In this document: positions 18,514 to 30,502 of the stretch, piece by piece
Position numbering within the stretch: the first letter of the stretch is position 1
How the letters are laid out: every line of letters starts with the position of its first letter
Source: Haladaptatus halobius
Lineage (GTDB): Archaea > Halobacteriota > Halobacteria > Halobacteriales > Haladaptataceae
Direction: 5' to 3'
Assembly: GCF_020618475.1 (NCBI RefSeq)
Contig: NZ_CP085336.1
Span: forward strand, 124,001 to 188,000
Length of the DNA stretch: 64,000 nucleotides
The notes under the pieces: generated by a model
What the model was told of the DNA's origin: nothing
Databases searched by the model: none
The model's input: only the letters and a program-made list of their open reading frames with translations
Translations under genes and position numbers: made by a program

Positions 18514-19152
18514 TCATGGGGATCTTCTTTCTGGAAACGGCGAAGTGGCGCAGCTAACAACAGTCCAATGTAATTTCGTTGGGCGGTCAGAGATAGCCAG
18601 GTATTCGTGGTGATGTGTATGACCATCGTGGTGGTGTGACGGCTCGTCGAGCTCACGTGTGTAAACAACGTACTTCTGAACTCCATGATCGTGTATGCGA
18701 TCGTCATGGTCGTGATCGTGATCATGAGAATGGTTTGTCTGCGTATTCTCATCGTGAGTGTGAGAGTCATCGCCGTGAGAGTGACTCGTGCCGTGGGAAT
18801 GGCCGCCGTAGTATTCGCGAATCCCGAGGAGGATGAGGAGAACGCCAGCAACGAGGCTTACCGGCCCGCCAATAAAGATCGTCGTCGAGAACAGATCAAG
18901 TGGAATTGGTTCGTTGACTTGTGTGAAGTTGAAATGGGATTTTGCATAGAAGAAGAGAGCAACCATCACGAGACTACTAATGAGGTGGCCAACACCGAGA
19001 ATGAAACTCGCAGCGAAGCCCGCGAACCACTTGTTCGTCTGATCGAGCGCATACGCGGCAGCGACTGGCCACCCGTGACCTAGTTCGATGCCATGAACTG
19101 CTCCGAGTGCAATAGCACCGATCAGCAGCCCAAAGGCATCCGATTGCAACAT
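18514..19152 (-). pseudogene. NicO/RcnA-like nickel-cobalt transporter, truncated after its His-rich loop
   Basis: The frame starts at ATG 19150-19152 and encodes 212 residues. Three hydrophobic segments (GAIALGAVHGIELGHGWPVA, then AGFAASFILGVGHLISSLV and GGPVSLVAGVLLILLG) are followed by a histidine-rich stretch of about 65 residues with runs such as HSHDHDHDHDD and HHHDGHTHHHE. In complete NicO/RcnA-like proteins a second bundle of three membrane helices follows such a loop (family knowledge). Here the protein ends about 28 residues after the loop, and the downstream bases do not encode the missing half in any frame. It is divergent from nikR. It may be a decayed gene or a shortened metal-buffering membrane protein. 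Confidence 0.65.
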
Positions 19153-19189
19153 CCGTGAAGAACACAGGGAATCCCAACAGTTAGGGGTT

Positions 19190-19220
19190 GTTATGACTGA
19201 ACTTGGACGGGCGTAATAAC
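19190..19220. promoter_or_regulatory. Candidate NikR operator (inverted repeat)
   Basis: GTTATGAC (19190-19197), 15 bases, then GTAATAAC (19213-19220) form an inverted repeat matching at 7 of 8 positions. It lies between the divergent nickel transporter and nikR starts. The layout resembles the long-spaced dyad bound by bacterial NikR (GTATGA, 16 bases, TCATAC; established for E. coli). Binding here is inference. Confidence 0.55.
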
Positions 19221-19253
19221 GGGGTCTAAGTATCGCTCGCAACAAGAACGCGT

Positions 19254-19646
19254 ATGCGAACTAGCCTCAACGTCCCGCAGGAAGTCTTGGACTCGTTCGA
19301 TGCGACGTGGGAAGCAGAAGGAATGGAATCGCGCTCCCGAGCCGTTCGCGAAGCGATGCAGGAATACATCGAGCGCCATACACAGTTCGAAGATATCGAG
19401 GGAAATGCCATCGCAGTGGTTGCATTCGACTACGAACACACCCTCGTTATTGGTGAACTCCATACGGTTCAGCACGAATTTGAGGATGTGATCGGAACAA
19501 TGCAACATATGCATCACGGCGATTGGTGTTTAGAGACGATTTTCTGTACCGGGCCAGCAGACCGCATTCGTGAGTTGGTGTATCAACTCCGGGATTTCGA
19601 TGCCGTTGGTCGTGTGAACGTCATGTTTCTCCAGCCCGTCGCCTGA
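19254..19646 (+). CDS. nikR: Nickel-responsive regulator NikR
   Basis: The 130-residue protein has an N-terminal ribbon-helix-helix DNA-binding domain (MRTSLNVPQEVLDSFDATWE, residues 1-45) and a C-terminal ACT-like nickel-binding domain. H74, H85, H87 and C92 (TVQHEF and QHMHHGDWCLE) correspond to the E. coli nickel ligands H76, H87, H89 and C95, with one residue fewer in the last loop. NikR represses nickel uptake genes when nickel is plentiful. The divergent transporter remnant and the dyad between the genes fit self-contained local control. Confidence 0.92.
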   Translation: MRTSLNVPQEVLDSFDATWEAEGMESRSRAVREAMQEYIERHTQFEDIEGNAIAVVAFDYEHTLVIGELHTVQHEFEDVIGTMQHMHHGDWCLETIFCTGPADRIRELVYQLRDFDAVGRVNVMFLQPVA

Positions 19647-20507: not shown

Positions 20508-20675
20508 GGTCTGCTTTATCTGTAGAATTACGTTTCACCCTCTAATCTCGTTTTTACTTACCCTCTATCGCTCTGCACTCACAACTACCGTGCTAGTTAT
20601 CACACACTACTAATGTTTTTCACAGGAATATCCTGATACGGAGAACAGATAAACCCTGTAAGTGACCACTTAAAC

Positions 20676-20701
20676 ACTCCCACGTAGATGGGAGTCATCT
20701 C
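20676..20701 (+). promoter_or_regulatory. Dyad and shared leader motif before the merB-like gene
   Basis: ACTCCCA (20676-20682), 6 bases, TGGGAGT (20689-20695) is a perfect 7-bp inverted repeat. It overlaps TGGGAGTCATCTC (20689-20701), which also precedes the SHOCT gene. GAGGTGG at 20729-20735 is a good Shine-Dalgarno for ATG 20744. Confidence 0.45.
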
Positions 20702-20743
20702 CTCGAGGCTGGCGGACCAATGATATATGAGGTGGTCTACCAC

Positions 20744-21343
20744 ATGGCGACGCACGCAACCGACACGGAATACCGAGGAGCCGACATCCTACCAGCGCTT
20801 AGTGAACAACTCAAACTCATCTTCAGCCTCGATGATGCACCAGCGACGTTGGACGAGTGGGTTGAGATGACCGTCATGCTGCTCCGTGAGGATGATATTA
20901 CTGTCGACCTCGATGCGCTCTGCACCGATGACTCATCGTGGAACACAGCACGTATCGGTGAAACTACTCACCACTTCCACTGCGTTCTTGACGCGATCGT
21001 TGTTCCCTTCCTGGTGGATGAGCTCGATGAGATTGCGATTCGCGCGACGAGTCCGTTGACGGGAAGCATCGTCGAGCTACAGGTGACTCACGATGAAATG
21101 ATCAGCACTCCAGAGGAGGCGGTGGTGTCTATTGGTGTGGCAACAGACACCACCGAGCCGGATGCAGATGCACTCATCTCTGAAATTGCTTATGAACGAT
21201 TCTGTCCCTACACGAATGCATTCCCATCTCGGACTGAGTATGAACAATGGGCCGAGGAGACGGATGCCGAAACCATGGCAATCTCAACCGACGAGGCATA
21301 CGAGCTAGCTCGTGCACTTGACCGGGCGGTTCACGACGAGTGA
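20744..21343 (+). CDS. merB: MerB-like organomercurial lyase
   Basis: The 199-residue product matches alkylmercury lyase, which cleaves carbon-mercury bonds and hands Hg(II) to MerA. The key residues are all visible: FHCVLDAIVVPFL contains the Cys and Asp pair corresponding to E. coli MerB C96 and D99, and RFCPYTNAFPSR contains the second active-site Cys (C159). Flanking text such as ATSPLTGSIVELQVT follows the MerB pattern. I prefer ATG 20744 because GAGGTGG precedes it by 8 bases; an ATG at 20720 is possible. A mercury operon starts 7 kb downstream. Confidence 0.82.
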   Translation: MATHATDTEYRGADILPALSEQLKLIFSLDDAPATLDEWVEMTVMLLREDDITVDLDALCTDDSSWNTARIGETTHHFHCVLDAIVVPFLVDELDEIAIRATSPLTGSIVELQVTHDEMISTPEEAVVSIGVATDTTEPDADALISEIAYERFCPYTNAFPSRTEYEQWAEETDAETMAISTDEAYELARALDRAVHDE

Positions 21344-23623: not shown

Positions 23624-25009
23624 TTACGACGGCTTGTGTACGCCGCCAGCAGCTGAGTTGATAACCTCCGGTAGCGTCGGGTGAATGTGAATCATGTCTG
23701 CAATATCTTCAGCCGATCCGCCGAGTTTCATTGCAATGACGATCTCGTGAATTAGGTCGGCACCCTGCTCACCGACGATATGACCGCCGAGGATATCACC
23801 GGTGTCTGCGTCAGAAACGATTTTGACGAAGCCCTCGGTCTCACCGAGCGCTTTCGGTTTCCCCTGGTCAGCATAGTCCGATTGACCAACCGCGATTTCA
23901 TATCCCTGCTCTTTCGCTTGTTCTTCGGTCAGCCCGACGCGGCCAACCTGCGGGTCGGTGAAGACGGCGTGGGGGACAATTCGGTCGTGAGCTTCGATCG
24001 TCTTGTCCTTGATCAGGTGTCGATAGAGGAGGTCTGCGTCGTTCCGTGCAGAGTGCGTGAACATCGGTCCACCGACGACGTCACCGAGCGCCCAAACAGG
24101 ATCCGCCGTGGTCTGGAACTGTTCATCGATTTCGATAAAGCCTTTCTCGTCGGTTTCGATGCCCGCCTTCTCAAGGCCAATAGTATCACTATTGGGTTGG
24201 CGGCCAGCCGCGATGAGCACATGTGAGGCATCGACAGTTACCGTCTCCCCGTCTTCAGTTGCAGAAACCTTGATATCTGACTCGGTGGATTCGAGTTGGT
24301 CGACGCTTGCATTCGTTCGCACGTCGATCCCTTCGGACTCGAACACTTCCTGTATCTCGGTGCCTACGTCGGAATCTTCCTGTGGGAGCAGGCGATCACC
24401 TCGTTGGAACATCGTCACCTCTGTGCCGAATCGTTCGTACATCTGGGCGTACTCACAGCCGACGTATCCACCGCCGACGACTGCAAGATGGCGCGGGACT
24501 TCCGTGAGCTCGATTGCACTCGTACTGTCTAGGGTTGATACTTCATCGAGTCCTTCGATTGGCGGTTTTGCTGGTCGAGCGCCAGTGTTCACTACGATCT
24601 TGTCCGCGGTGAGCACGCGGTCATTGACTGTGATTTCGGTCGGCGATTCGAAGCGACCGCGTCCCTCGATGAGGTCGAGATTTTCCGTGTTCTCAACATT
24701 GGTGTAGGCACCCTCGCGGATACTTTCGAGAATACGCTGCTTCCGTTCGACGACGGCCTCCATGTCGGTATAGGCTTCTCCTTCACGATTGATCCCGAAC
24801 ACCTCCGCGCGGTCGACGAGGTTTGCGACTTCCGCGCTCCGGATCATCGTCTTCGTCGGGATGCACCCGCGATTCAGGCATGTCCCGCCGAGATAGCTAT
24901 CTTCGATTAGCGCCGTTTTCAGCCCTTTTCGTGCGCCTTTGATGCTCACTGGCAGTCCGGCCATGCCTCCGCCGAGAACGATGAGGTCGTAGGTGTCGGT
25001 GGTACTCAT
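23624..25009 (-). CDS. Class I pyridine-nucleotide-disulfide oxidoreductase (Lpd/MerA-like)
   Basis: The 461-residue flavoprotein has FAD-binding DLIVLGGGMAGLPVSIKG, the redox disulfide GGTCLNRGCIPTK, an NAD(P) motif VVGGGYVGCEYAQMYERFG and the second FAD motif VWALGDVVGG. The C-terminal active-site base is present as HIHPTLPEVINSA, so it can reduce a disulfide partner like dihydrolipoamide dehydrogenase. It lacks the C-terminal CysCys of MerA. It is the last gene of a minus-strand run after merA, tlpA-like and ccdA, so it may recycle a thiol used in mercury detoxification (inference). Confidence 0.85.
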   Translation of the reverse strand: MSTTDTYDLIVLGGGMAGLPVSIKGARKGLKTALIEDSYLGGTCLNRGCIPTKTMIRSAEVANLVDRAEVFGINREGEAYTDMEAVVERKQRILESIREGAYTNVENTENLDLIEGRGRFESPTEITVNDRVLTADKIVVNTGARPAKPPIEGLDEVSTLDSTSAIELTEVPRHLAVVGGGYVGCEYAQMYERFGTEVTMFQRGDRLLPQEDSDVGTEIQEVFESEGIDVRTNASVDQLESTESDIKVSATEDGETVTVDASHVLIAAGRQPNSDTIGLEKAGIETDEKGFIEIDEQFQTTADPVWALGDVVGGPMFTHSARNDADLLYRHLIKDKTIEAHDRIVPHAVFTDPQVGRVGLTEEQAKEQGYEIAVGQSDYADQGKPKALGETEGFVKIVSDADTGDILGGHIVGEQGADLIHEIVIAMKLGGSAEDIADMIHIHPTLPEVINSAAGGVHKPS

Positions 25010-25112
25010 TCTAATACTTGTTTGTACATCGAATCATAAAGAGTCACCGGCAAAGGTTCCAAGAGGGCATCCTCAAGAGTTGAGGTGAGCCAACCTGTAT
25101 GGTCGAGGCAAT

Positions 25113-25880
25113 TCACAGCATTTGGATCTGTGCGTAGTAGTAGAGCATGTATACCCCGGCTCCAATCAGCAGAACCGCGCTCGCCCGTTCGACGTATGGA
25201 ACAAGCGGCTGAATGCGGCGGGCGGTCTCCTCCTTCGCCACAGCTACAAGCACCGTCATCACCACGAACAGCCCGATCATCCCACTTGCGTATCCCGTCA
25301 AGACCGTGATCGCGCCTAGAATTCCATCAGTGGAAAGCGCTGTCAGTGTAATGCCGAAGAACACGGGGGCAGTACACCCGAGGGCGGCCCCAGCGAACAG
25401 CAGGCCAAAGACAAAGAACTGTTTTGGCGAGGCCTTACCCCACTCAGGTAATTGCACTGAGCGTGAGAGCCATGTCGCGCGATTTATGAGCATGAGCACG
25501 CCGAGACCGAGGACGACAAGTCCGACGATTGGAATCAACACTGGTATAATGCGCGTCAGGACATCGCCGAGGACGCCAGCAATGGCCGCAGTGACGGCAA
25601 ACACGCTCAGCATCCCCGCACTCGCCAACCCACCGAAGAGGACGCCGCGCCGGAGACTCGCCGTGACCGACCCGCCGTCAGCGCTCGTCGTTGTCTCTAG
25701 CGAGGTAGATGTCGAGGATGCGTCCGCCGAGAGGTAATATGAGAGATACGCGGGAAGCATCGGAAGTGCACACGGCGAGAAGAACGATGTAATCTCGCCG
25801 GAAAGCCCCCACGTAAACAGACTCCAGCTTACGCTCCTAATCGCGAGTGGTGCGACAGTAGAGAATAATTCGCTGCTCAT
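25113..25880 (-). CDS. ccdA: CcdA/DsbD-type thiol electron transporter
   Basis: The 255-residue membrane protein has about six transmembrane segments. The first contains the conserved Cys of ITSFFSPCALPMLPAYLS, and the second Cys lies in GAALGCTAPVFFG. CcdA proteins carry reducing power from cytoplasmic thioredoxin across the membrane to extracytoplasmic thioredoxin-like partners. The gene begins 3 bases after the TlpA-like gene, so the two are almost certainly partners. A Ser/Thr-rich insert (about residues 55-70) follows the first helix. Confidence 0.87.
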   Translation of the reverse strand: MSSELFSTVAPLAIRSVSWSLFTWGLSGEITSFFSPCALPMLPAYLSYYLSADASSTSTSLETTTSADGGSVTASLRRGVLFGGLASAGMLSVFAVTAAIAGVLGDVLTRIIPVLIPIVGLVVLGLGVLMLINRATWLSRSVQLPEWGKASPKQFFVFGLLFAGAALGCTAPVFFGITLTALSTDGILGAITVLTGYASGMIGLFVVMTVLVAVAKEETARRIQPLVPYVERASAVLLIGAGVYMLYYYAQIQML

Positions 25881-25883
25881 GAT

Positions 25884-26465
25884 TCAGAGGAGCTTCTTTA
25901 ATTCTCTCTTGAACTGCGTGACCGACGTGACGTCCGAGTCCGTATAGACGGTCACGCCGTCCTGATTGATAATATAGGTCGTGTCAAGCGACGTGAGACG
26001 ATACTTTTGGATGAGTTCCTTCGTTCCCATTGCGTGAATCCAGTCACCACCATATTTTTGCTTGAATGTCTGGAGATCTTGCATACTGTCTCGATCCGGG
26101 TCCATATCGATGGAAATCAGACGAACATCCTCTCCGAATTTCTCATGCACCTGCTTCAGATTGTGCTCCTCTTGCTTGCAGGACGTGCACCAGGCAGCCA
26201 TGAAAAACAGCGCTGTTGGCTTCTCAACGGGGTGGAGTGAGACTGTGTTCCCTGCCGTTGTCTGTAGGCTGAAGTTCGGAAGTTTCTGATCAACATGTAG
26301 TTCCGTCTTTGCCTCTGAGCTTGCGGACTTACTAGCCCCACCGTTTTCACTCGATGAGTCGGGGTGTTGAGTCTGCTCTTGAGAGGAGTCGTTGCCTCCG
26401 GAACAGCCTGCAAGCCCAGTTACTGTGCCGGCACCGATCATGGTGAGTAGAGTTCGTCGTCTCAT
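25884..26465 (-). CDS. TlpA-like thioredoxin lipoprotein
   Basis: The 193-residue protein starts MRRRTLLTMIGAG with a lipobox LAGCSGG, so it should be anchored outside the membrane. After a Ser/Gln-rich linker of about 45 residues comes a thioredoxin fold with the redox motif AAWCTSCKQEE and the conserved TYIINQDG. It would receive electrons from the adjacent CcdA and keep an extracellular protein or metal-binding thiol reduced. It lies 60 bases downstream of merA on the same strand. Confidence 0.86.
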   Translation of the reverse strand: MRRRTLLTMIGAGTVTGLAGCSGGNDSSQEQTQHPDSSSENGGASKSASSEAKTELHVDQKLPNFSLQTTAGNTVSLHPVEKPTALFFMAAWCTSCKQEEHNLKQVHEKFGEDVRLISIDMDPDRDSMQDLQTFKQKYGGDWIHAMGTKELIQKYRLTSLDTTYIINQDGVTVYTDSDVTSVTQFKRELKKLL

Positions 26466-26526
26466 AGTTCAATGTATATTGAGATATTGATTTATTATGC
26501 TCTGTTTAACCATCTTTTCCTGGTGG

Positions 26527-27993
26527 TCACTCAACGCAGCAACTCATCGTCGAGACATCACGCCGGAATGCCTGGCAAGCGTGTTTGAATGCTTCACTGA
26601 ACGTCGGGAAGGGGTGGATTGTGTCGATGATATCGTCGACGGTCAGCCCGAATTTGACGGCGAGCGTCGCTTCGGGGATCATATCAGCCGCCCGTGGCGT
26701 GATCATGTGGACGCCGACGATTTTGTCGGTTTCGTGGTGCTTGACCACTTGGAGCAGGCCCCGAGTGTCCTCAACGGCCTTCGCTTTCGGCACGTCTTCC
26801 ATATCGACCGTCCGGCAGGTACAGGTTCCGTGTTCGGCCATGTATTCGAGCTCGGTCGTCCCGACGGCGGCGACCTCAGGACTCGTGAAGACAACCTTCG
26901 GTACCGTGTTGTAGTCAATCGTCTTCCCTTCGTTCTCGAATGCGTTTTTCACCGCGTGGTTACCCTCTTTCGCTGCCACGGTTTCAAGCATCGGCTCGCC
27001 GATGATATCGCCCGCCGCATAGACATCAGGGTTCGCCGTCTGGAAGTGCTCGTCAACGACGACGGCCCCTGCTTCGTCGATTTCGACGCCGATCGCATCA
27101 AGGCCGATATCCTCGCTGTTCGGGCGGACGCCGGTGGCGACGAACAGGTCGGTCGCGGTAAAGTCCTGGTGTTCACTGTCGACGTCGGCAGTGACGACGA
27201 CACCGTGTTCGACGGCTTGTGTCCCACCGTCCGCTGCGACGGTAGCTGTGGATTCGATGTACCTAATATCGACGCCAGTAACAACCTCGATACCTTCGGC
27301 TTCGAAGCAGCGCTGGAGCTCACGCCCGAGCTGGCCCTCCATCGTCGAAAGAACGTGCTCGGAGCGCTGGAGGATCGTGACGTCCGTCCCCATGTGATGG
27401 AGAATCTGGCTCCACTCGAGACCGATATAGCCACCACCGATCATGATGATACTCTTAGGGAGATTACGTCGCTCAAGAATCGTCTCACTCGTCTCGTAGG
27501 CGACATCCTCGATTCCGTCGAAAGGTGCGATCCAGGGCGAACTCCCCGTGGCGATGAGCGCCTTCTCGCCCGTGATGGTGGTACCCTCGGCGTCTCCGTC
27601 GACGATTTCGATCGTCGTACTGTCGGTGAATCGGCCGGAGCCCTCGTAGATGTCCGTCTCGAAGTAGTCGGCAACGTCGACGTAGTTCTGCTCGCGCAAC
27701 TGTGCGACGAGCCGATCCTTCTCGTCGAGGGCGTTGGCCCAGTCGGTCGTCGACTCGTTCTCGCCGTACTGCACCGCATCAAATGGGTTTAGAGGCGGTT
27801 CAAACGCCGTCTTCCCAACTTCAAGGAGGTGCTTACTCGGCACGCACCCAACGTTCACGCAGGTTCCGCCAAGCGGCAATCCACTGTTCACGAGGGCAGT
27901 TGAGAGCTTGCGTCGACTGGCTTCGGTTATCGCGGCGAACGCGGCGGCCCCACCACCTAGAATGACGAGATCGTATTCACGATCAGAACTCAT
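26527..27993 (-). CDS. merA: Mercuric reductase MerA
   Basis: This 488-residue enzyme reduces Hg(II) to volatile Hg(0) with NADPH in the cytoplasm. FAD binding is seen at DLVILGGGAAAFAAITEA, the redox pair at GGTCVNVGCVPSK (identical to well-known MerA proteins), the NADPH motif at IGGGYIGLEWSQ, and the C-terminal vicinal cysteines at STMSCCVE, which deliver mercury to the active site. The N-terminal heavy-metal-binding domain of many bacterial MerA proteins is absent, as is common in archaea. The start MSSDREYDL at 27993 is preferred to an upstream ATG at 28044. It is divergent from an ArsR-type regulator, which likely controls it. Confidence 0.93.
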   Translation of the reverse strand: MSSDREYDLVILGGGAAAFAAITEASRRKLSTALVNSGLPLGGTCVNVGCVPSKHLLEVGKTAFEPPLNPFDAVQYGENESTTDWANALDEKDRLVAQLREQNYVDVADYFETDIYEGSGRFTDSTTIEIVDGDAEGTTITGEKALIATGSSPWIAPFDGIEDVAYETSETILERRNLPKSIIMIGGGYIGLEWSQILHHMGTDVTILQRSEHVLSTMEGQLGRELQRCFEAEGIEVVTGVDIRYIESTATVAADGGTQAVEHGVVVTADVDSEHQDFTATDLFVATGVRPNSEDIGLDAIGVEIDEAGAVVVDEHFQTANPDVYAAGDIIGEPMLETVAAKEGNHAVKNAFENEGKTIDYNTVPKVVFTSPEVAAVGTTELEYMAEHGTCTCRTVDMEDVPKAKAVEDTRGLLQVVKHHETDKIVGVHMITPRAADMIPEATLAVKFGLTVDDIIDTIHPFPTFSEAFKHACQAFRRDVSTMSCCVE

Positions 27994-28062
27994 TTCAACG
28001 TTTGTTTTGATATCGATGGTTAAAGTGATGCCGAATTTCGCCAACTACGTCTCTCCGTAACA

Positions 28063-28071
28063 CCTATACTA
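28063..28071 (+). promoter_or_regulatory. TATA box of the ArsR-type regulator
   Basis: CCTATACTA (28063-28071) lies 23-31 bases before ATG 28094, the leaderless spacing. The 100-base divergent region also serves merA and probably holds the regulator's operator; no clear dyad was identified. Confidence 0.5.
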
Positions 28072-28093
28072 CTATACATCAATACAGGTTATA

Positions 28094-28444
28094 ATGAGTA
28101 TCTCACTCTTCCAATCAACTGATGACGTCAATGAAGCCCGAGCAACCATCTTCCGCGCACTGGGAGACGAGACGCGGCTTCGCATCTATCAGACAATTAT
28201 CGAAGCCGACGACCCACTGAACGTCACTGAGATCTGTGAGCGCACTGATCTCTCGGCGAACCTCGTCTCGCATCACCTCCAGTGTTTGAAGAATTGCCAG
28301 CTCGTCACGGTTGAACGCGATGGCCGCCAGCGATTCTACGAAATCGCTCGATCCGAAGGGACTCAGCTGCTCGAACTCGCTGATGAGTGCATCCGGCAGA
28401 ATATCGAGAGCGTACTCGGCTGTGAAATCGTCAGAGAGGACTGA
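28094..28444 (+). CDS. ArsR-family metal-responsive regulator, likely mercury sensor
   Basis: The 116-residue winged-helix protein shows the ArsR fold: IFRALGDETRLRIYQTII, then the recognition helix in LSANLVSHHLQCLKN and the wing VERDGRQRFYEIA. Cysteines C48, C64, C68, C99 and C110 are candidates for metal binding, with C64 and C68 in the recognition helix region as in classical ArsR/CadC-type sensors. It is divergent from merA and followed by a 3-base gap to the CPGC protein gene. Mercury sensing is inferred from context. Confidence 0.85.
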   Translation: MSISLFQSTDDVNEARATIFRALGDETRLRIYQTIIEADDPLNVTEICERTDLSANLVSHHLQCLKNCQLVTVERDGRQRFYEIARSEGTQLLELADECIRQNIESVLGCEIVRED

Positions 28445-28447
28445 GCG

Positions 28448-28987
28448 ATGAAAGAACTATCCCGTTCACTAGCCAAGCTTGACGGATCACTCTCGCAGCT
28501 CGAAGCGTTCTTTGCGGACACAGCCGGAACTCCACGATTTATCGCTCTTCTTTCTCCGACATGCCCAGGCTGTATCAATGGTGCTGACGCAGTGCGAGAA
28601 GCAATACTCGAAGAGCAAGACACAGAATTGGCCGTCGCGATCATTTGAATCCCGATGCTCGACGGGGATACACCAGACGAAATTGAGCAGACATCGCGAC
28701 GGTTCGCCGATATGACATCACACAATTACATCACACAATTTGTCGATACAGACCGAATCGCAGATGCGCACATCGCGAAGGCATTAGGTGCGACGAACGG
28801 AATTGCCTGGGATATTTATCTCTTCTACGACTCAGACGAGCAGTGGGAGAACGGTGCTGCAACACCACATGACTGGGTTCACCAGTTACGCCCCTGTTCC
28901 TGGGCACCAGTTGAGCGTCTTCGATGCGGCGATGACCTCAAAGCTGCTCTCCGACAGCAAGCGCATCGAATGATAGAGAATCAATAA
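28448..28987 (+). pseudogene. CPGC thioredoxin-like mercury-operon protein interrupted by one TGA
   Basis: One frame of 180 codons encodes a thioredoxin-like protein with the redox motif SPTCPGCING (C39, C42). Codon 67, TGA at 28646-28648, interrupts it; the frame then continues with IPMLDGDTPDEIEQ, NGIAWDIYLFYDSDEQW and HDWVHQLRP without any shift. In related proteins that I remember, a Trp (TGG) stands before the PML segment, so a single G-to-A change explains the stop. It follows the ArsR gene by 3 bases and probably served in mercury thiol chemistry. It may be a fresh pseudogene, a readthrough gene or a sequencing error. Confidence 0.75.
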
Positions 28988-30154: not shown

Positions 30155-30502
30155 TCACCGATGCATTCTATTGTAGGCCGCAATATCCGCCTGCGTCAGC
30201 TCACCATCGCCGTTGAAGTCCAGCGCAGCGACTTGCGCGTCAGTCAATGTAATTTCGCCCCGCCGATAGACGTTCACGAGCTGCGCCAGTCGAGAGACAT
30301 CCTGCCCATCAATATTGCCGTCGCCATTCAGATCCTCGAACAAGCCATCTCCATCATGCTCCACTGGCGGAAGTTGCATCCCATTCGGCAGTGTGATCGG
30401 TTCGACGAACGGACTTATCTCCAGGATGGATACGTACGCCGATCCCAAACCACCCCTGTTGGTGTTATTCCATTGTGCGCCAATGACCGCGGCGAAACCG
30501 TT
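30155..30502 (-). pseudogene. Dockerin-domain C-terminal fragment of a secreted protein
   Basis: The open frame runs from a TAA at 30503-30505 to the stop at 30155 without a start codon. It encodes GFAAVIGAQWNNTNRGG, a linker, then a type I dockerin pair of calcium-binding loops: DLNGDGNIDGQD and DFNGDGELTQAD. Haloarchaeal dockerins are usually at the C-terminus of large exported proteins (family knowledge). Here only about 115 residues remain, so the gene is a 3' remnant. Confidence 0.7.

Follow-up and report, generated by a model that had tools for sequence, protein, structure and literature searches.

A mer-type TlpA and a CcdA homologue beside merA in the haloarchaeon Haladaptatus halobius

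We examined a 64,000-nucleotide stretch of the Haladaptatus halobius genome (NZ_CP085336.1, positions 124,001 to 188,000; hereafter the window), which is part of a contig of 1.41 Mb; the whole genome measures 7.3 Mb. In it, genes for a surface thioredoxin-like protein (TlpA) and a membrane protein of the CcdA type sit between merA, encoding mercuric reductase, and the gene for a second flavin adenine dinucleotide (FAD) disulfide reductase. These four genes run head to tail on the minus strand, divergent from an ArsR-type regulator gene that is followed, also on the plus strand, by a gene for a protein with a CPGC motif. That tlpA and ccdA belong to the mercury system is well supported by sequence comparison, because their order is conserved, operator-like sites are common to the locus, the relatives of this TlpA are found in mer operons, and it carries a distinctive mark at its cis-proline site. 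Such a pair also recurs in mercury operons of unrelated bacteria, a recurrence that points to a role for it in dealing with mercury at the membrane. The genes, their order and their coordinates had been proposed earlier from the letters alone; this sequence-only reading was borne out, with family models matching merA, tlpA, the reductase and arsR (Table 1).

We first consider how often the pair accompanies merA. The survey covered 394 genomes of the class, which held 61 merA loci including that of the window; with 11 plasmid loci, three genomes of the family and Halegenticoccus added, the total came to about 76 haloarchaeal merA loci, and conclusions about neighbourhoods were drawn from loci of 12–19 kb. 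The tlpA-ccdA pair stands beside merA in two of them, the window and Halegenticoccus soli (NZ_PEND01000002, locus L277). The latter, from a second family, has arsR, merA, tlpA, ccdA and the reductase gene in identical order, at 63–77% identity. Linkage of tlpA and ccdA to merA in relatives, chosen beforehand as one of two results (the other being induction by mercury) on which the sequence-only reading was to stand or fall, was thus found in H. soli as well as in bacterial mer operons, and together with the common operator-like sites it upholds the placing of the pair in the mercury system. The nearest plasmid relative, from Halomarina PSR21, has arsR, merA and the reductase gene at 80–90% identity, but there the reductase gene comes directly after merA; because so similar a locus lacks tlpA-ccdA, the pair is, by this comparison, an accessory cassette. 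Halomarina PSR21, Halorussus vallis and Halorarius halobius all resemble the window in their orthologous arsR, merA and reductase genes and in the same putative operator 5’ of merA, but have no tlpA-ccdA and carry one or two small membrane proteins with a Cys-Cys (CC) pair after arsR.

TlpA itself has a twin-arginine signal, a lipobox (LAGC) and a WCTSC motif. It has the AhpC-TSA/thioredoxin fold with CxxC and the membrane anchor of TlpA/ResA proteins, but where these have a cis-proline facing CxxC it has Asp161. It shares every feature of the mer-linked TlpAs of the staphylococcal ORF3 type: its gene adjoins merA and ccdA, it contains FMAxWC, the residue at the cis-proline site is acidic, and it groups with them in the tree. 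A plasmid protein search with TlpA gave staphylococcal mer-operon TlpAs as best matches, and its closest other relatives are encoded, for the most part beside ccdA, in mer operons of Staphylococcus, of Actinobacteria and of further phyla. Genomes were scanned for the motif [LI][YF]FMA[SAT]WC, which selects for the window’s type of TlpA although the cis-proline site falls outside it; this gave 26 related loci, 16 of them with merA within about 6 kb. By comparison, merA was present in none of 39 loci surrounding the nearest haloarchaeal TlpA and CcdA homologues, many of which are ordinary tlpA-ccdA couples. The merA-linked TlpAs all lie on one side of a single branch of the tree (91/97), and we take the TlpA of the window to be of a mer type common to bacteria and archaea. 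Structures predicted by AlphaFold from the single sequences of TlpA and of the CPGC protein reached a mean predicted local distance difference test score of about 42 and were not used.

In the alignment, merA-linked TlpAs have Asp or Glu at the cis-proline column (the site is unreadable in one linked locus, L297, which has a broken frame). Proline occupies it in 16 of the 16 haloarchaeal tlpA-ccdA couples shown and in all but one of the four bacterial non-mer TlpAs shown; the exception, encoded on a plasmid island related to metals, has Gly. TlpAs with no merA nearby, in loci L292, L293 and L296, have other residues there. The cis-proline of thioredoxin folds, which faces CxxC, is reported to hold metals away from this motif (Su et al., 2007, as cited in PMC2757866). 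Since an acidic residue replaces this proline in TlpA, its loss makes metal binding a likelier function than ordinary disulfide reduction, without amounting to proof.

The membrane protein encoded next to TlpA had no match in Pfam or NCBIfam. It aligned over its full length with 19 haloarchaeal CcdAs at 29–39% identity, with C37 and C169 invariant in the 20 sequences, and matched annotated CcdAs in blastp at 23–31% identity (E 6e-27 to 3e-25). A single-sequence genome scan with CcdA gave no matches, the patterns used not being conserved, and a plasmid search with CcdA also gave none, which is uninformative given that hydrophobic queries are masked by the filter for low complexity (a CC protein known from a plasmid record was likewise missed). 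In the tree, the two haloarchaeal mer-CcdAs group with haloarchaeal CcdAs, and their bacterial counterparts are set apart on another branch (98/99), which includes one unlinked actinobacterial CcdA. Because TlpA and CcdA group differently, the cassette would combine a TlpA shared between domains with a CcdA that was probably recruited locally. Actinobacterial mer-linked CcdAs (L273:3910-4866 and L274:3865-4833) carry a C-terminal CC motif, as MerT and MerF do; it is absent from the CcdA of the window.

Next, we asked whether the genes might be regulated together. The merA-arsR intergenic regions of seven relatives have in common a 21-bp site beside the merA start. A weight matrix was built from these seven sites, with the window left out, and both strands of the 64 kb were scanned. 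The three best matches lie directly 5’ of merA, the reductase gene and tlpA (Table 1), with about 0.8 matches scoring at least 14 expected by chance per 64-kb window; ccdA, 3 bp after tlpA, has no such site of its own. In Halegenticoccus, which was outside the matrix set, the two best matches were 5’ of merA (27.7) and tlpA (14.0), and in Halomarina, with its own site removed from the matrix, the best match was directly 5’ of the reductase gene. Loci with an HxlR-type regulator lacked the site at merA and at the reductase gene. As an operator-like site is common to them, merA, tlpA-ccdA and the reductase gene are predicted to be co-regulated, with ArsR as the presumed binding protein and mercury as the presumed inducer. 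The gaps between merA and tlpA (61 bp) and between ccdA and the reductase gene (103 bp) each contain a site, so three transcription starts are more probable than one. We therefore predict one regulon with three starts; of the single operon supposed by the sequence-only reading, the head-to-tail order stands and the single transcript probably does not. A scan for bacterial-type promoters and terminators gave background levels. As for the regulator, a candidate Hg-sensing ArsR/SmtB repressor, it matches the ArsR family model, and five cysteines (C48, C64, C68, C99 and C110) are invariant in ten orthologues, its operator being a prediction. ArsR of this type is in the minority: 48 of the 61 haloarchaeal merA loci have a different divergent regulator, of the HxlR type with a CDVDGTCYCPLTG motif.

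The sequence-only reading had seen no importer of the MerT, MerP or MerC type, and consistent with this our scan of the window for a small membrane protein with CC in its first helix (MerT/MerF type) found none. By the same scan, small CC importers are absent from both haloarchaeal loci with tlpA-ccdA but present in four sister loci with an orthologous arsR (L211, L049/L257, L256 and L259), where arsR is followed by one or two two-helix proteins of 79–100 residues with CC in the first helix. Replacement of the importer by tlpA-ccdA in haloarchaea is compatible with this pattern, a hint that comes from two loci. The small arsR-coupled CC proteins (L211:8312-8551, L214:8279-8518, L256:7246-7548 and L259:7288-7524), one of which was searched and had no Pfam match, look like undescribed importers of the MerF/MerT type.

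Among bacteria, staphylococcal mer operons (the pSK62 and pI258 type, S. equorum and S. simulans) resemble the window in having tlpA-ccdA inside, beside merA. The order is merR-tlpA-ccdA-merT-merA-merB in pSK62 and merR-CC protein-tlpA-ccdA-merA-FAD oxidoreductase in S. equorum and S. simulans, with a shortened tlpA in S. simulans; like the window locus, the last two end in an FAD oxidoreductase gene. Staphylococcal TlpAs are 40–42% identical to that of the window over the core and have Glu at the cis-proline site. These operons differ from the window in their MerR regulator, their NmerA-bearing MerA, their MerT or CC importer and the different lineage of their CcdA. In actinobacterial mer operons (Arthrobacter, Rhodococcus and Corynebacterium) ccdA and tlpA also stand beside merA, often with merB and an FAD oxidoreductase gene (in Arthrobacter and Rhodococcus ccdA-tlpA adjoins merA and merB), and TlpA has Asp at the cis-proline site, as in the window. 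Unlike in the window, ccdA comes first, the regulator is of MerR type, CcdA ends in CC and a CC importer is often present. The remark in the sequence-only reading that no description of the arrangement was known was wrong, as these staphylococcal and actinomycete operons carry TlpA and CcdA, the arrangement can be read from public annotation, and a table in a 2025 review has TrxA/CcdA entries under ‘mercury transporter’ and ‘mercury resistance operon ORF3’ (PMC12195606). We found no functional study of the TlpA-CcdA pair in mercury resistance in the open-access literature, nor is it mentioned in the reviews we searched on how mer evolved and on metal resistance in haloarchaea. The haloarchaeal version seems to be new, and so do its predicted operator, its mosaic origin and the mark at the cis-proline site.

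We propose that in the haloarchaeal mer-linked module an outside dithiol captures Hg(II), CcdA keeps this dithiol reduced, and Hg(II) is passed inward to MerA, a proposal that we regard as evenly poised between right and wrong. Mercury binding to the cysteines of one ArsR-type repressor would probably switch on merA, tlpA-ccdA and the reductase gene together. TlpA, anchored outside the membrane and presenting a CxxC dithiol that lacks the metal-excluding proline, would capture Hg(II) rather than mainly reduce proteins, and CcdA would carry electrons from cytoplasmic thiols to keep the TlpA dithiol reduced. Hg(II) would then be handed to MerA, presumably in the inward direction, and reduced to Hg(0), while the second reductase, cytoplasmic and probably NADPH-using, may keep the cell’s own thiols reduced for MerA. 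This proposal combines the cis-proline mark with the electron route from CcdA to a surface lipoprotein established in pneumococcus (PMC3914529); the pneumococcal Etrx-CcdA system resembles the window in pairing CcdA with a surface TlpA-like lipoprotein, and differs in having methionine sulfoxide reductase as its client and no mercury genes. More tentatively, mer-type TlpA might form a new class of extracytoplasmic mercury chaperone in bacteria and archaea, made into a metal carrier by its acidic cis-proline replacement, reduced by CcdA, and replacing MerP/CC importers in some haloarchaea; we are rather doubtful of this wider claim. Several points weigh against our proposal. The identity of CcdA depends on alignment, with no family model behind it, and the acidic residue at the cis-proline site might have another purpose. 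The linked TlpAs beyond Staphylococcus came mostly from a motif scan that favours this TlpA type. The pair is missing from about 74 of the 76 haloarchaeal merA loci and hence is dispensable for resistance, and bacterial modules retain a CC importer beside tlpA-ccdA, which means that the pair does not replace the importer everywhere.

The main alternative to Hg(II) capture is that CcdA and TlpA pass electrons outward to protect the thiols of surface proteins (in bacteria, the cysteines of a MerT/MerF-type importer) under mercury and oxidative stress, with TlpA carrying no Hg(II). The pneumococcal system is a precedent for it (PMC3914529), the bacterial modules adjoin a CC importer that needs reduction to work, and the tlpA gene of Thermus thermophilus is Hg(II)-inducible (PMC6445937). 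However, loss of the cis-proline speaks against an ordinary disulfide reductase, and the two haloarchaeal loci contain no CC importer or other obvious client; we consider this alternative possible, though not what we would expect. A less likely one, to which we give little credence, is that CcdA itself imports Hg(II) through its two membrane cysteines, with TlpA as external donor. Actinomycete entries are annotated ‘mercury transporter’ (PMC12195606), actinobacterial mer-CcdAs end in CC as MerT and MerF do, and the window scan found no other importer, but the known role of CcdA proteins is to carry electrons, the importer in bacterial operons is a CC protein distinct from CcdA, and the CcdA of the window lacks the C-terminal CC. 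It is highly improbable that an ordinary thiol or cytochrome-maturation couple came to lie between these two reductase genes by a chance insertion: haloarchaea often have tlpA-ccdA couples unaccompanied by merA, and the CcdA of the window groups with these rather than with bacterial mer-CcdAs, but the same order in a second family, the common operator-like sites, the mer-type TlpA and the recurrence in several phyla all argue otherwise.

The second reductase scores above the cut-off for the dihydrolipoamide dehydrogenase family (Table 1), and its gene travels with merA rather than with E1/E2 genes. It adjoins merA in 15 haloarchaeal loci, the window and Halegenticoccus among them, and its identity to other haloarchaeal paralogues does not exceed 40%. 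The remaining 13 loci have no tlpA or ccdA, and we accordingly rejected the reductase as a dedicated electron donor for CcdA; the sequence-only reading had it supply electrons to the TlpA-CcdA pair, which these loci do not support. Its nucleotide-binding strand reads FQRGDR. NAD-type enzymes have Glu where this one has Arg, and because of this replacement it probably uses NADPH. A thiol-recycling role is plausible by analogy; gamma-glutamylcysteine is the main small thiol of haloarchaea, and its disulfide reductase was once annotated as MerA (PMC7278568).

Turning to the remaining genes, MerA has the redox motif GGTCVNVGC and a C-terminal SCCVE by sequence, and no NmerA domain. A merB gene that the sequence-only reading had overlooked is likely part of the same mercury island, and merB adjoins merA in Halorussus. 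At 20673-20693, 27 bp 5’ of merB, there is a weak operator-like match whose score of 11.5 is close to what chance would give. In Halorussus vallis, of the same family (Haladaptataceae), merB, an HTH_10 regulator, the reductase and NikR-like and NicO-like genes form one island. Genes for a NikR-like regulator (19254-19646, plus strand) and a NicO-like membrane protein (18514-19245, minus strand) are each found near merA in 12 haloarchaeal loci, including the window. The divergent arsR of the sequence-only reading was confirmed by its family model, but its companion CPGC gene is not intact: codon 67 is an in-frame TGA, with the frame open beyond it. The CPGC protein had no homologue in 393 other haloarchaeal genomes or in plasmids, and its gene is probably decayed or affected by a sequencing error. 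Selenocysteine at this TGA was judged unlikely, as haloarchaea are not known to use it. An open reading frame with a dockerin type I domain (30155-30448, minus strand; PF00404, 40 bits) was also present in this haloarchaeon.

Table 1. Features of the mercury locus, in window coordinates
Feature	Position	Strand	Evidence or remark
arsR-type regulator	28094-28444	+	NF033788 80.6 bits, cut-off 55; divergent from merA
Operator-like site directly 5’ of merA	27994-28014	.	Score 20.4, rank 1 in 64 kb; matrix from relatives only
merA, mercuric reductase	26527-27993	-	TIGR02053 503 bits, cut-off 454
Operator-like site directly 5’ of tlpA	26468-26488	.	Score 14.6, rank 3 in 64 kb
tlpA, twin-arginine lipoprotein, thioredoxin fold, mer type	25884-26465	-	PF00578 (AhpC-TSA) 53 bits, cut-off 26; alignment; tree
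ccdA, membrane protein, C37 and C169	25113-25880	-	Alignment with 19 haloarchaeal CcdAs; blastp to annotated CcdAs
Operator-like site directly 5’ of second reductase gene	25010-25030	.	Score 19.5, rank 2 in 64 kb
Second FAD disulfide reductase, mer-associated clade	23624-25009	-	TIGR01350 451 bits, cut-off 408.8
CPGC gene	28448-28987	+	3 bp after arsR; in-frame TGA 28646-28648
merB, organomercurial lyase	20720-21343	+	PF03243 62 bits, cut-off 27

For the TlpA and CcdA of the staphylococcal mer operon we found no tested role. That haloarchaea have a TlpA of the same type, together with a CcdA and a predicted operator that are both archaeal, greatly raises the likelihood of a dedicated function in mercury resistance. 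If true, this would bring a redox-driven step into the textbook mer pathway and hint at the way in which cells lacking MerT and MerP may deal with extracellular Hg(II).

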